A stretch of 58,825 nucleotides of DNA from an uncultured cyanobacterium (GTDB lineage Bacteria; Cyanobacteriota; Cyanobacteriia; Thermostichales; Thermostichaceae), in contig CALFBB010000015.1 of assembly GCA_937944885.1 (NCBI GenBank), forward strand, positions 1-58,825. The letters are read 5' to 3'. The notes below the pieces were generated by a model. That model saw only the letters and a list, made by a program, of their open reading frames with translations, was not told where the DNA came from and searched no databases. Positions within the stretch are counted from its first letter, which is position 1; each line of letters begins with the position of its first letter. Of the stretch, positions 40,151 to 45,907 are shown one piece after another. Both the position numbers and the translations under genes were made by a program.

Positions 40151-41662
40151 ATGGGCAAGGTGTATTTGCTGGGGGCGGGCTTAGGCGGGCGAGAGGGTCT
40201 GACGCTGCGGGCCTTGCAGATTCTGCATCAGGCGGAGGCCATTTGGGTCGATGAGCTGGTGGATGAGCGGTTGCTGGCGGAGTTGCCGAGTCAAGCCCAG
40301 GTGTGGCGACGCTGTGAGCGGAGTTCTGGGGAAGAAGGGATCCACTGGTTAATCCAACGCTGCCAGGAGGGTAAACAGGTGGTGCATCTGAAATCGGGGG
40401 ATCCTTTTATTTTTGGTCGCAGCCGCGAAGAGGTGGAAGCCCTGAGTGCTGCCGGCTGCCCCTTTGAGATCCTGCCCGGCCTGTCTGCGGCACTGGCCGG
40501 CCCCTTTTGGGCTGGGATCCCGCTTACGGATAAGCACCTGAGCCGCACGTTTGCCGTTCTCACAGCCCATGAGCTGGAAACTCTCCCTTGGTCGGCCCTG
40601 GCCCAACTGGATACCCTGGTGATTTTGATGGGATCCCGTCGGCAGGCAGCAATTGCCACCCATTTGATCCAGGCGGGGATCCCGGCTAACCGACCGGTGG
40701 CCCTAATCTGGGCCGCAGGGGAAGCAGCCCAGAAGGTATGGGTAGGGGAAGTGGAGGATCTCCTTCCAGGCAGGGAAAACAACCTTCCCGAGCCGCCCCC
40801 TCGGCCGGGGCTTTGGGTGGTGGGAGAGGTAGTCAAGCTGCGGCCCCAGTTTTTGCCAGGGATCCCTCCTCTGCCGCAGCCGGCTCCCTTAGCCGGTCAA
40901 ACCGTTTTGGTTACCCGTTCCGAGGAGCAATCCCCAAGCTTTTGCCAACTGCTGCAAACCCAAGGGGCAAGGGTCTTGGAGATGCCCACCCTGGTGATTC
41001 AACCCCCTAGCAGCTGGGATCCCCTAGATACAGCCATTGCCGGCCTGCAGAAGTTCGACTGGCTGTTGTTGACTTCTGCTAATGCCGTCACCTATTTTTT
41101 CAAGCGGCTCCATCACCACGGACAAGATAGCCGAGCCCTCCATCGGCTCAAGGTGGCGGTGGTGGGATCCAAAACAGCAGCAGTCCTGGCCGAATACGGC
41201 ATTCACCCGGATCTGGTTCCTCCCCGATTTGTTGCCGATGCCCTCCTAGAGATCTGGCCGGAGCCGGTGGCCGGGCAGCGGGTGCTCTTCCCACGGGTAG
41301 AATCCGGCGGTCGGGATATCTTGGTGCAAGGGCTCCAGCAACAGGGGGCCCAGGTGCTGGAGGTACCGGCCTACCAATCGGCTTGTCCGCCGCTTCCCGA
41401 TCCCCAGGTGGTAGAGACCCTGAAAAGGCGGCAGGTGAATATCCTCACCTTTGCCAGCTCCAAGACGGTGCAGCACTTTGCCCGGTTGCTGCGGCAGGCA
41501 GGGTTGGGAGCCGAGAGCTGGGATCCCCCTGTGCAGATTGCTGCCATTGGCCCCAAAACCGCAGAAACCTGTCGGGCCGAGCTAGGACGGGTGGATATTC
41601 AAGCCAAGGAGTACACCCTAGAGGGGTTGGTAGAAGCCATAGTGGCTGCCCTCCAGAAGTGA
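40151..41662 (+). CDS. cobA-hemD: fused uroporphyrinogen-III C-methyltransferase / uroporphyrinogen-III synthase
   Basis: 503-aa bifunctional tetrapyrrole enzyme. N-terminal SUMT domain (about 1-240): [39 protein letters not shown] and [21 protein letters not shown]-terminal HemD domain (about 250-500): [51 protein letters not shown] and [16 protein letters not shown]. It closes the linear tetrapyrrole and makes precorrin-2 for siroheme and B12; the HemD part also feeds heme and chlorophyll. AGAGGAAGGCAGCG precedes the ATG. menB follows 37 bases downstream. Confidence 0.96.
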
Positions 41663-41699
41663 CCCCAGCCCGCAACCATTGGATAATACGGATCCCAGC

Positions 41700-42563
41700 A
41701 TGTCCGCAGTAGCACCCTCGCAAGGATCGAAGACCATGTGGCAGACCGCCAAATCCTACGAAGATATTCTTTACGAAAAAAGTGAGGAGGGCATTGCCAA
41801 AATCACCATCAACCGCCCCCACAAACGCAACGCCTTCCGGCCCAAAACCATTCAGGAGTTGATTGACGCTTTCTCCAATGTACGGGAGGATCCCCGTATT
41901 GGGGTGGTGCTGTTTACCGGGGCCGGCCCCCACAGCGACGGCCAATACGCCTTCTGTGCCGGTGGGGATCAGAGCGTACGCGGAGAAGCCGGTTACTTGG
42001 ATGAAGCCGGGATCCCACGCCTGAACGTGCTGGATTTGCAGCGTTTGATCCGCTCTCTACCGAAGGTGGTGATTGCCTTGGTAGCCGGTTATGCCATCGG
42101 TGGGGGGCATGTCTTGCACTTGGTCTGTGACCTCACCCTGGCTGCCGACAACGCCATTTTTGGTCAGACCGGCCCCAAGGTGGGGAGCTTTGATGGGGGC
42201 TTTGGAGCCAGCTACCTGGCCCGGGTGGTAGGACAAAAAAAAGCCAGGGAGATCTGGTTTCTCTGTCGCCAGTACACCGCAGCACAAGCCCTGGAGATGG
42301 GGCTGGTGAATGCAGTTGTCCCCGTTGAAGAATTAGAAGCAGAAGGGATCCGCTGGGCGCGGGAAATCCTGCAAAAAAGCCCCTTGGCCATCCGCTGTCT
42401 CAAGGCGGCCTTCAATGCCGATTGCGACGGCCAGGCAGGGCTACAAGAACTGGCAGGCAATGCCACCCTATTGTTTTACATGACCGAAGAAGCTGCCGAA
42501 GGCAAACGTGCTTTTCTGGAAAAGCGTCCCCCCAACTTCCGCCAGTTTCCTTGGCTACCCTAA
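41700..42563 (+). CDS. menB: 1,4-dihydroxy-2-naphthoyl-CoA synthase
   Basis: Crotonase-fold enzyme closing the naphthoquinone ring, needed in cyanobacteria for phylloquinone of photosystem I. Seen: [35 protein letters not shown] (oxyanion loop with the MenB-specific GGDQ), [20 protein letters not shown] and the C-terminal [22 protein letters not shown] at 41700 gives 287 aa; ATG at 41736 ([15 protein letters not shown]) gives 275 aa and matches homologues about as well. Probably cotranscribed with cobA-hemD. Confidence 0.97.
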
Positions 42564-42717
42564 ACCCCCTTGCAGGGAGCCAAGCTCGTCTGCAGCCGTT
42601 GACTTGGATAAACTCTCTCTGCTAAACCCTCTCTGCTCAACTCTACAGCTATCCCTGGGTATTAGGTGTTAAAATTCAACGGGATTCAATAACAGCAAAA
42701 AACAGACAAAATTGACA

Positions 42718-42739
42718 AACAGGCTAGGAACAGGCTAGG
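42718..42739. repeat. tandem 11-mer duplicating the Shine-Dalgarno region of the nuclease-ParA gene
   Basis: AACAGGCTAGG occurs at 42718-42728 and 42729-42739. The second copy supplies the AGGA in front of the ATG at 42742. The duplication therefore created, or displaced, the ribosome-binding site of the island's first gene. Confidence 0.85.
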
Positions 42740-42741
42740 AT

Positions 42742-44223
42742 ATGCCGGAACCCGAAGACCTACATAGTCATAGCGGGGCGCCTTTGGGACAAACAGCTGT
42801 TGTCCGCCTTTTAGACAAGGTATCCGGCCACATCTGCGAGAAAACCCTTGTCAGAGAGTTGATTCCCCCCCTTTTGAGTCTGTGGGGATACAAAGCCGGT
42901 GATTGGCAGCAGGAGGTTCCTTTAGGTTCCAGTTGCCGTGCTGACTTCCTTGTTTCCATCCAGAGAGCCGGCAAGCCCCGTCTTAACTATCTGCTCATAG
43001 AGGCCAAAGCCCCTAAAGAAAACCTAGACAAACATATCTGTCAGGTTCACCTTTATCTCCGGCAAGCCAGATCTATATTTGGCTTATTGACGAATGGTTT
43101 CGAATTTCAGATATATTACAATAACGCTCTAGAAATTCTTTGTTTAGGAAAACTCAATAGAGATACATTTATTGCAAAGTTTCCTACTCTGAGTAAGATT
43201 CTGGGGCGTAAGGGCTGTTTAGTTATTACCGAGGAACTTGAAAAATTAAATCTTTCCTTCCACAACCGCTTATATGGATATCTTCAGAAGGTATTTCCGA
43301 ATTCTCAACAACCCTCTAACTCCCGCAAGGAAAGGCCCATCAGTAAACCCAACAGTAGCTCAGGAAAGTCTGGAACTATGATTATTACAGTTTTCAACAA
43401 CAAGGGTGGAGTCGGCAAGACCACAATGACCATCAACCTAGCTGCCGCTCTTAGTGGCATGGGGAAGAAAGTTCTCTTAATTGACATTGATGCTCAGGCA
43501 AACCTAACTACAGGCTTGGGTATCGACCCCCTTCAAGATGTAGAACTAAAATCCAAAAAAGATATTACCCATCTTCTAGCAGAGCCGATTGTTAAGGTAG
43601 AGGAGGTTATCATTTCCAAGCAATGGGGAAATGTAAAACTAGATATTATTCCCTCTCATATTCGTTTGAGCGATATGGAGCCTCTGCTCATTAGCACAGT
43701 GGATTCTGACCAGATTCTGGCAAAGAAGCTTAAAAAAATTACCCAAAACTATGACTATATTTTTATAGACACTCCTCCTTCTTTTGGCAAGGTTAACAGT
43801 ATATCTTTGATGGCCTCCGATAGGGTACTGGTTCCCATTCACTTAGCTCCTTATCCGATTCGGGCACTTGAGTATGTGGTGAAACGGGTGAAGGTGATTG
43901 ATGATGCTCGGGAATGCCCCCTTTCTATTCTTGGTATAGCCGTTAGTATGTACGATAAAGCAGCAACCAAGCAGAGTAAGGAGATGATATCTGAGGTCTA
44001 TGCAGTCTTGTCTAGAGTTACTACAGATAAGCTTATTCAAATCTTCCCAGAAAATACATGGATACCCAGAAGAGTTATTGTCTCTAACTGTCCTGCTAAG
44101 GGTTATCCCCTCTCTTGGGCAGAACATGATGAGGAGCTATTGACCCAAGAGAAAGAAGCAGCCCTGGATGCCTTTCATTGCTACACTGAGCTTGCTACGC
44201 ACTTGCTTCATTTAACTGAGTAG
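42742..44223 (+). CDS. HsdR-N-type PD-(D/E)XK nuclease domain fused to ParA ATPase
   Basis: 493 aa, two complete modules. Residues 20-185 follow the type I restriction HsdR N-terminal pattern: Glu33 (ICEKTLVRELIPPLLSLWGY), Asp68 (CRADFLVS), Glu87-Ala-Lys89 (LLIEAKAPKENL), Gln101 (CQVHLYLRQA), then GLLTNGFEFQIYY. All presumed nuclease residues are present. A Ser/Pro linker (about 188-211) leads to Met213, where a free-standing ParA would begin: MIITVFNNKGGVGKTT. The deviant Walker A has signature Lys221 and Lys226; LLIDIDAQANLTTGLG and Walker B FIDTPPS (Asp343) follow. DNA cleavage or binding steered by a ParA switch is the inference. The next gene is ParB-like, 49 bases away. Region is AT-rich and nearly free of GGATCC, suggesting transfer. 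Confidence 0.88.
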   Translation: MPEPEDLHSHSGAPLGQTAVVRLLDKVSGHICEKTLVRELIPPLLSLWGYKAGDWQQEVPLGSSCRADFLVSIQRAGKPRLNYLLIEAKAPKENLDKHICQVHLYLRQARSIFGLLTNGFEFQIYYNNALEILCLGKLNRDTFIAKFPTLSKILGRKGCLVITEELEKLNLSFHNRLYGYLQKVFPNSQQPSNSRKERPISKPNSSSGKSGTMIITVFNNKGGVGKTTMTINLAAALSGMGKKVLLIDIDAQANLTTGLGIDPLQDVELKSKKDITHLLAEPIVKVEEVIISKQWGNVKLDIIPSHIRLSDMEPLLISTVDSDQILAKKLKKITQNYDYIFIDTPPSFGKVNSISLMASDRVLVPIHLAPYPIRALEYVVKRVKVIDDARECPLSILGIAVSMYDKAATKQSKEMISEVYAVLSRVTTDKLIQIFPENTWIPRRVIVSNCPAKGYPLSWAEHDEELLTQEKEAALDAFHCYTELATHLLHLTE

Positions 44224-44272
44224 GAATTGGAGAGTGGCTTAGACTGTCTTTATGCCTTTCTAGGATTAGAAA

Positions 44273-45028
44273 ATGGACTTTTCCCAAGATATCCGACAAC
44301 AGATTATTGAGCAATATCTCAGGATAAAGCCACTCAACCACGGTCAGGTTCACATTTCTCAAATTGCTATTCCCGATACCCTGAAAGCATGCCTAGGTCA
44401 AGATAAGGTTGAGGCTGCAACTCAAAGCATAAGAAAATTTGGTAGCAATCTGTACCCAATCATCGTTAGGAGAACAAATGGCTATGGAGAAGATAAAGAG
44501 TATGAAGTAATCTTTGGAGAAGAGTGGTGTGAAGCAGCTAAACAATTGGAACTAGAGAGAATTTGGGTGTGGGTCTTTGATCTCTCTGATGATGAGGTGG
44601 CTTACCTGCGTCAGTTCCTAGAAGAAGGATCCCTGAGATCCAACCTAGATGAGAGTCAAGGCAGAGTTGGACACAATAGAGAGTCTCAAGAAACAGGTCA
44701 GCTTGGGCAGTTTGATCAGATTCTTTCAATTCTTTCTCAGATTCTTTCAATTCTTTCGGCCCAGAACCAAATTCTTGTTGAAATTAAGCAATCCCTGGAT
44801 GAGTTACTCGATCGGTTGCCCAAGCCTCCTCAACTTAAGAATATCAATGGAGTGACAGAAGAAGAACTTAAGAATTCACAAAATCCAATAGTAAAAAAAC
44901 ATGCAAGTGAAATCTACCAATTTATTAGCGCTCGAGGGAGCATTAAGAGTATAGATGAATTAAAACAGATTCGTGGAATTGGTCCAAAAACAATTGAATA
45001 CTTGAAAAACAAGTATAAGTGTGAGTAG
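44273..45028 (+). CDS. ParB-N domain protein with coiled coil and C-terminal helix-hairpin-helix
   Basis: 251 aa. Residues 25-115 are a ParB/Srx-type domain (VHISQIAIPD, SIRKFGSNLYPIIVRRT, YEVIFGEEWCEAAKQLELERIWVWVF). The ParB box G-E-R-R-x-R-A reads G-E-E-W-C-E-A here (82-88), so the CTP-contacting arginines are lost. Residues 147-182 form a coiled coil with the heptad unit QILSILS duplicated by a 21-bp tandem repeat (44717-44757). The end (225-248, IDELKQIRGIGPKTIEYLKN) is a DNA-binding helix-hairpin-helix. There is no typical ParB central HTH. AGGA precedes the ATG. Very likely the partner of the nuclease-ParA protein. Confidence 0.85.
   Translation: MDFSQDIRQQIIEQYLRIKPLNHGQVHISQIAIPDTLKACLGQDKVEAATQSIRKFGSNLYPIIVRRTNGYGEDKEYEVIFGEEWCEAAKQLELERIWVWVFDLSDDEVAYLRQFLEEGSLRSNLDESQGRVGHNRESQETGQLGQFDQILSILSQILSILSAQNQILVEIKQSLDELLDRLPKPPQLKNINGVTEEELKNSQNPIVKKHASEIYQFISARGSIKSIDELKQIRGIGPKTIEYLKNKYKCE
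44717..44757 (+). repeat. 21-bp in-frame tandem duplication inside the ParB-like gene
   Basis: A unit starting CAGATTCTTTCAATTC is repeated head to tail (44717-44737, 44738-44757 plus one changed base). Each copy encodes seven residues, giving QILSILSQILSILS. Because the unit is one heptad, the duplication lengthens the coiled coil by exactly two helical turns without breaking its register. Confidence 0.9.
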
Positions 45029-45202
45029 AGAGCAGTTTTACAGGGTTCTTTGTGGATTCTTTTGTATAAAACAATCTTTTCATAAACTCCTTGAATTTAA
45101 GGATATCTGACTCTCAACCAGTATGTTTATTCAGGTCTGTTGGAGAGGGCCTGCTGCTGTGTATTTGAGATCGATTCCTTTCTTGTGCTCAGCTAGGCTC
45201 CA

Positions 45203-45907
45203 TTAGCCACCCAGAAATAGCTCTAGGACTTCAGGGTTAGCCAAGAGATTGGGGCCAGTATCTTCAAAGCGGTTTTCACCCGTTGACAGCACATAGCCCC
45301 AGTCAGCCATGCTCAGGGCTTGCTTGGCGTTTTGTTCTACCATCAGGATGCTAATACCGAGGTGATTGATCTCCCGCAGCAGATTAAAGGTTTGCTCAAC
45401 AAAGAGGGGGGACAGACCGGCTGTCGGCTCATCCAACAACAACAATTGTGGCTCCACCATCAAGGCCCGTCCCATTGCTACCATTTGCCGCTGCCCACCG
45501 GAAAGGGATCCCGCTGCTTGGTGCCGTTTCTCTTTCAGGGGAGGAAACAGCTCATAAACCCGCTCCAATTGGTCAGCAAAGTTATCTTGCCGAATAAAAG
45601 CGCCCATCTCCAGGTTTTCTTGCACCGAGAGAGAAGGAAAAACATTGTTTGTCTGCGGTACAAAACAAATCCCCCGCCGCACCAGTTGCTCTGCTGGCAA
45701 CCGGGTAATGTCGGATCCCTGAAACAGGACCTTACCGGCTCGGATGGTGGCCAACCCAAACAGAGATTTCAACACAGTTGATTTACCGGCTCCATTGGGG
45801 CCGATAATCACCACAATTTGTCCTTGCTTGACTTTGAGGTGGATCCCTTTGAGGATGTCCACACCACGGTAGCCGCTGTAGAGATTCTGCAGTTCCAGCA
45901 AGGTCAT
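45203..45907 (-). CDS. livF: branched-chain/neutral amino-acid ABC transporter ATPase (LivF type)
   Basis: 234-aa ATPase of a HAAT-family importer. Walker A GPNGAGKST, ICFVPQTNNVFPSLSVQENL (LivF-type Q-loop region), signature LSGGQRQMVAMGRALM, Walker B LLLLDEPTAGLSPLF and H-loop LMVEQNAKQAL. ATG at 45907 (MTLLELQNLYSGY) overlaps the livG stop as ATGA, so translation is coupled; the longer frame to 46081 lies inside livG. The permease genes livH/livM are not in the window. Confidence 0.94.
   Translation of the reverse strand: MTLLELQNLYSGYRGVDILKGIHLKVKQGQIVVIIGPNGAGKSTVLKSLFGLATIRAGKVLFQGSDITRLPAEQLVRRGICFVPQTNNVFPSLSVQENLEMGAFIRQDNFADQLERVYELFPPLKEKRHQAAGSLSGGQRQMVAMGRALMVEPQLLLLDEPTAGLSPLFVEQTFNLLREINHLGISILMVEQNAKQALSMADWGYVLSTGENRFEDTGPNLLANPEVLELFLGG

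Follow-up and report, generated by a model that had tools for sequence, protein, structure and literature searches.

What would a cyanobacterium do with a ParA ATPase that carries a putative nuclease domain, and with a ParB-like partner encoded directly behind it? This question is raised by two adjacent ORFs, here called gene 1 and gene 2, in a 58,825-nt stretch of cyanobacterial DNA (the window) from a 2.82-Mb genome in 62 contigs, whose relatives, like all named hits, are cyanobacterial. An earlier note, made from the sequence alone, had described the pair as an AT-rich block, poor in GGATCC and wedged between housekeeping genes, and had read it as a mobile defence or interference system. 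Both ORFs were recovered at the positions reported there, on the + strand and with 49 bp between them (Table 1). The names of the flanking genes, hydratase excepted, are readings of their sequences; the upstream CobA-HemD-type and hydratase genes are kept across the genus whether the pair is present or not. The composition of the block was as described, with a GC content of 42.2% in the pair versus 54.7% in the remainder of the window and a single GGATCC versus the 6.5 expected from the 168 copies in the window. At about one per 350 bp over the 58.8 kb of positions 1-58825, this over-represented hexamer recalls the HIP1-type palindromes of cyanobacteria. No tRNA was found within 35-52 kb, no Rfam RNA matched at the pair and no iterons were found in 42500-45300.

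Table 1. Features of the two-gene locus and its flanks, with window positions and predicted identities
Feature	Position	Strand	Residues or length	Basis or remark
Upstream flank: CobA-HemD-type gene, then enoyl-CoA hydratase/MenB-type gene	40151..42563	+
Gene 1: predicted PD-(D/E)XK (HsdR-N type) nuclease domain fused to ParA ATPase	42742..44223	+	493 aa
Putative nuclease domain	42784..43293	+	15-184	core pLDDT about 90 (AlphaFold)
Presumed catalytic set E33, D68, E87-x-K89, Q101-x3-Y105	42838..43056	+		conservation
Flexible linker	43294..43377	+	185-212	pLDDT <50 at residues 188-209
ParA domain	43378..44220	+	from Met213	Soj match, conserved residues
Gene 2: ParB-N fold, coiled coil, helix-hairpin-helix (HhH)	44273..45028	+	251 aa
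ParB-N fold, GxxR box = GEEW	44336..44608	+	22-112	profile and structure matches
Coiled coil	44696..44812	+	142-180	gene 2
C-terminal HhH module (type A)	44840..45013	+		HHH_3; comE-type HhH E 2.2e-9
Downstream flank: LivF- and LivG-type ABC transporter genes		-

Assignment of the N-terminal domain of gene 1 to the PD-(D/E)XK superfamily draws on profile matches with weak scores, on conserved motifs and on the predicted secondary structure. The HSDR_N_2 profile matched the window protein with an E of 1e-4, under Pfam's cut-off, and matched 19 of 20 homologous N-domains, with a best E of 1.4e-9. The core is predicted to run in the order alpha33-47, beta55-60, beta66-72, beta82-88, alpha95-109, beta113-117. 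D68, E87 and K89 align to D60, E76 and K78 of BpuSI, which we take to be its catalytic residues, in a profile match with an E of just 0.019. Across 89 gene-1 proteins, that of the window and 88 distinct others collected by a profile search of the phylum and two further searches, E33, D68, E87, K89 and Y105 are identical, and no homologue lacks the nuclease residues. Q101 is present in 40/40 proteins of one of two deep subfamilies of the pair (subfamily 1) and is mostly R/K in the other (subfamily 2). With its invariant residues, the order of its secondary structure and its HSDR_N_2 matches, the domain has the features of the superfamily and is a putative nuclease.

The remainder of gene 1 is a complete ParA, matched by the AAA_31/ParA profile over residues 214-389 (E 9.8e-50) and containing a deviant Walker A motif (KGGVGKTT, 221-228), the Walker A' aspartates D248 and D250 and the Walker B residue D343. 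K221 is invariant in 89/89 proteins, and K226 and the Walker A' aspartates are kept wherever the copy spans them. The gene-1 model superposed on free Soj with a Z of 34 and an rmsd of 1.8 Å over 253 residues; McdA was also among its structural matches. Because this alignment begins with Soj residue 1 paired to model residue 211, the fusion junction corresponds to the start point of a free ParA. Overall, the alignments indicate that the nuclease and ATPase active sites of gene 1 are both under strict conservation.

Gene 2 was matched by the ParB_N (E 5.1e-8) and HHH_3 (E 4.1e-6) profiles, and the top PDB matches of its model were ParB and Noc, with PadC and sulfiredoxin too. The GxxR box, which is the phosphate-binding box of ParB (PMC12704722), is replaced by GEEW in the window, by GADW-type sequences in subfamily 1 and by GHFE-type sequences in subfamily 2; because the box is lost, nucleotide binding by gene 2 is doubtful. 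No HTH family matched gene 2, and the ParA-binding motif LG-R/K-GL is absent from both the window protein and the family consensus. A perfect 21-bp tandem duplication (44716-44757) lies inside the coiled coil, and the C-terminal module is the portion of gene 2 that is swapped in relatives. Long gene-2 paralogues of 362-371 aa with a SAP/Rho_N tail (L157:7035-8123, L184:6887-8002, L169:9978-11066) are solitary or located after the pair. Profile and structure matches agree with the architecture that the earlier note had drawn for both genes, and its statements that the nuclease and ATPase residues are intact, that gene 1 is joined at the point where a free ParA would start and that the CTP-box arginines are lost in gene 2 all stood.

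The two genes travel together. Of 386 genomes taken from across the phylum, ~63 gave strong matches to the N-domain (profile, E <1e-35), nearly all within ORFs of 450-530 aa; the majority of sampled genomes are without the pair. In 81 of the 84 loci that could be assessed, gene 2 lies immediately 3' of gene 1 and on its strand, with a median gap of 0 bp; of the 24 genomes that gave a strong match to gene 2, 23 also carry gene 1. The three exceptions to adjacency are a gene-2 fragment truncated by the end of its contig (L049), a genome in which both genes are kept with gene 2 sitting 1 Mb away (L037 and L184) and a frame-broken gene 1 (L182). Judged from gene order, gene 2 is a near-obligate operon partner of gene 1, and the invariant active sites in 89 proteins with the adjacency in 81/84 loci make the pair more than chance. 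Two of the three findings by which the earlier note would have been refuted, homologues without the nuclease residues and a pair not conserved together, were looked for and not seen. The pair is patchy in the window's genus, where it is present in 2/6 genomes behind the same upstream genes; between these two copies gene 1 is 60% identical, versus about 92% for the hydratase. We looked in the genus for a clean empty site, but none was readable: the upstream gene is kept, and each genome has another neighbour downstream. Broken copies exist, which suggests that the pair is dispensable. In L165, L153, L176, L182 and L036, gene 1 lies in two overlapping frames or ends after the nuclease domain, by decay or assembly error. 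A scan of 84,980 species with one short peptide pattern returned 27 relatives, 27/27 of them cyanobacterial; subfamily 2 was surveyed inside the phylum. L182 (genome G067; same phylum, another class) holds a subfamily-2-like gene 1 outside the main class, by transfer or contamination.

Trees built for the nuclease, ParA and ParB-N parts of 78 intact pairs all separate subfamily 1 from subfamily 2 with 0 mismatches and a support of 1.0, indicating that the three parts are inherited as one unit. The gene-2 tails fall into three types, A (HhH), B (SAP/Rho_N) and C (a third type), and all three occur in both subfamilies: type A in 8 pairs of subfamily 1 and 28 of subfamily 2, type B in 17 and 3, and type C in 12 and 8. 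Tail-type changes on the trees number 16-18 versus about 35 when shuffled; with fewer changes than shuffled and no match to the subfamilies, a tail would be passed on for some time and then swapped. Exchange of the tail is seen directly in L154 and L155, where the nuclease (95%), ParA (99%) and ParB-N (96%) parts are nearly identical versus 27% for the tail, and where 96% DNA homology across gene 1 and the ParB-N part breaks off inside gene 2. Overall, these comparisons indicate that the tail is swapped apart from the rest, by analogy with the target-recognition parts of restriction enzymes.

Whole units are exchanged as well. L140 (subfamily 1) and L145 (subfamily 2) carry the pair at one site, next to IleRS and a divergent orphan ParA gene. 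Identity between the two is 96% in the orphan ParA and 89% in IleRS versus 33% in gene 1 and 36% in gene 2, and the DNA homology ends about 116 bp ahead of gene 1 and returns beyond gene 2. Similarly, the unit is replaced between L138 and L163 at a cysteine-synthase/desaturase site. The GC content of the pair is below that of its flanks in 76/76 loci, by a mean of 6.8 points. Flanking repeats were considered as exchange borders and rejected: they were found in only 4/76 loci, mainly as dispersed palindromes of one lineage, and no common flanking repeat was present in the other 72/76. In that lineage, dispersed palindromic repeats of the GAGTCCTTTAGGACTC type flank the pair on both sides (L138, L163, L058). 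Separately, nuclease and ParA identities diverge strongly within the same genome pair for L158/L159, L070/L071 (nuclease 90% versus ParA 67% identical) and L053/L070, a sign of recombination within gene 1. Many loci also have, next to the pair, an orphan ParA of about 294 aa that is often divergent and close to IleRS (L140:7926-8810, L141:5813-6709 and others).

The pair is chromosomal, at fixed sites, and swapped in place. A search of 72,556 plasmids with the N-domain returned only two weak Borreliella matches; no phage record covered 80% of gene 1, phage matches to the full gene being via the ParA part only; two scans of viral contigs found no relative; and subfamily-2 gene 1, in the search for such carriage, gave no match at 1e-30. 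No integrase, tRNA or plasmid gene adjoins the pair. The carriage on a plasmid or integrated element that a plasmid partition locus would have was not seen in these searches, which makes unlikely the alternative named in the earlier note, that the pair serves an integrated plasmid as its ordinary partition system. Of that note's mobile defence system, the conserved pair is supported, the mobility as worded there is not. Nor was a defence-island setting found: 110 neighbour representatives are mostly housekeeping genes with few PADLOC matches, and PADLOC gave no model and no convincing match for gene 1 or gene 2. The one exception is an SspH-like block, comprising a 3'-5' exonuclease/PD-(D/E)XK/FtsK protein (SspH-like, E 4e-70), a KAP-type ATPase and a 280-aa protein, at L052:11558-16212 and in similar form in L057, L066, L067, L070, L074, L077, L141, L145, L153, L155, L157 and L161. 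This block looks like a separate defence operon. Its KAP ATPase occurs in 45/386 genomes, 7 of which also hold a strong pair; pair and block lie within about 13 kb of each other in 6 of these 7, several of which share synteny by ancestry, with many cases from one family.

Among the known systems compared, none combines these features. Like ParABS, the locus has a complete ParA (deviant Walker A, A' and B), parA first and an adjacent ParB-N partner; unlike ParABS, a nuclease is fused to ParA, gene 2 is devoid of HTH, LG-R/K-GL motif and GxxR box and ends in an HhH, SAP or third-type tail, and the pair is off plasmids and swapped in place. PadC of Myxococcus and other HTH-less proteins with the ParB-CTPase fold likewise use a ParB-CTPase-type fold as a ParA partner (PMC12704722), but PadC binds CTP and retains the ParA-binding motif. 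A 2025 survey of that fold named only ParB-DUF3850 fusions as consistently beside parA, and the nuclease-ParA/ParB-N pair is absent from it (PMC12704722). Type I HsdR has a similar N-terminal PD-(D/E)XK domain (HSDR_N_2 type, QxxxY), but the pair is without SF2 helicase, HsdM and HsdS and its ATPase is ParA; no helicase family was found in gene 1 and no methylase in either gene. McdAB and other ParA positioning systems pair a ParA with a dedicated coiled-coil partner, but McdAB has no nuclease, its partner has no ParB-N fold and it is not swapped in this way. SspFGH/BREX-like HerA/FtsK systems are linked to the pair in several genomes by the neighbouring SspH-like protein, but the SspH-like block is an operon of its own, present in many genomes without the pair. 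ParA ATPases are known to carry DNA, organelles and protein clusters as cargo, and we know of no system with a nuclease-bearing ParA. The open-access full texts searched gave no description of the pair; its component families are known, and only their architecture would be new.

We put a defence or conflict role first: a conflict system, unlike housekeeping partition, would be expected to be replaced in place, to exchange its tail, to be dispensable and to have low GC. Our main reading, at about even confidence, is of a two-gene DNA-targeting module that sits on the chromosome, is exchanged horizontally and is most likely immune (anti-phage or anti-plasmid). The hotspot shared with the SspH-like block supports a conflict module; the mostly housekeeping neighbours and the scarcity of PADLOC defence genes nearby speak against defence. 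From the sequences, a defence role is plausible, and fast evolution by exchange also fits selfish or surface-linked loci.

We considered whether the pair might instead position DNA or maintain the chromosome in polyploid cyanobacteria; ParA would then move or space DNA, gene 2 would be a cargo adaptor and the nuclease domain would trim, resolve or bind DNA. The complete, Soj-like ParA domain, the similarity of gene 2 to ParB, Noc and PadC and the stable chromosomal sites, often beside the orphan ParA, are all consistent with this. However, the pair is missing in 4/6 genus genomes and most sampled genomes and has broken copies, it is replaced in place by a 33% identical version with its neighbours nearly unchanged, and it is GC-poor everywhere, with a gene 2 that has no HTH, ParA-binding motif or GxxR box. 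We consider this explanation unlikely and rank it second. Replacement, low GC and patchiness would also be at home in a selfish, addictive DNA-cutting module with the logic of restriction-modification or toxin-antitoxin, in which gene 2 would restrain the nuclease and loss or replacement would harm the cell, and the strictly paired two-gene operon would suit it. Such a module, ranked third, is distinctly unlikely: neither a methylase nor a typical antitoxin is present, an ATPase of 490 aa would be an unusual toxin, gene 2 bears DNA-binding modules and not the form of a protease-sensitive antitoxin, and the pair is absent from plasmids and phages. Processing or sorting of incoming DNA in natural transformation, ranked fourth, is suggested by the window's HhH tail, which is closest to the ComEA type, but is very improbable given that about half of the pairs have a SAP/Rho_N or third-type tail and that competence genes were not seen among the neighbours.

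We return to the immune reading. In its specific form, which we offer tentatively and at somewhat less than even confidence, the pair is an unnamed cyanobacterial immune system consisting of a nuclease-bearing ParA and an exchangeable recognition subunit derived from ParB and devoid of its nucleotide box; partition machinery would in this way have become a switch for cutting DNA. Under the main reading, the ParA part would bind ATP, dimerise and load onto DNA without sequence specificity. Gene 2, best read as a recruiter or specificity subunit, would dimerise by its coiled coil and anchor on target DNA via its HhH, SAP or third-type tail, and its ParB-N fold would contact ParA at a target lacking from, or hidden on, host DNA. 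This contact would pair two PD-(D/E)XK domains, leading to cutting of the DNA, and ATP turnover would then serve to reset the enzyme and to hold it off host DNA. Since HhH, SAP and Rho_N modules usually show little sequence specificity in their binding to DNA, a tail swap need not alter the target.

The two subfamilies, the strict conservation of residues and the natural tail swaps make this idea directly testable. Should the pair cut foreign DNA, the ParA/ParB switch would have gained a new use, and cyanobacteria a defence system that current catalogues overlook because it lies among housekeeping genes, outside defence islands.
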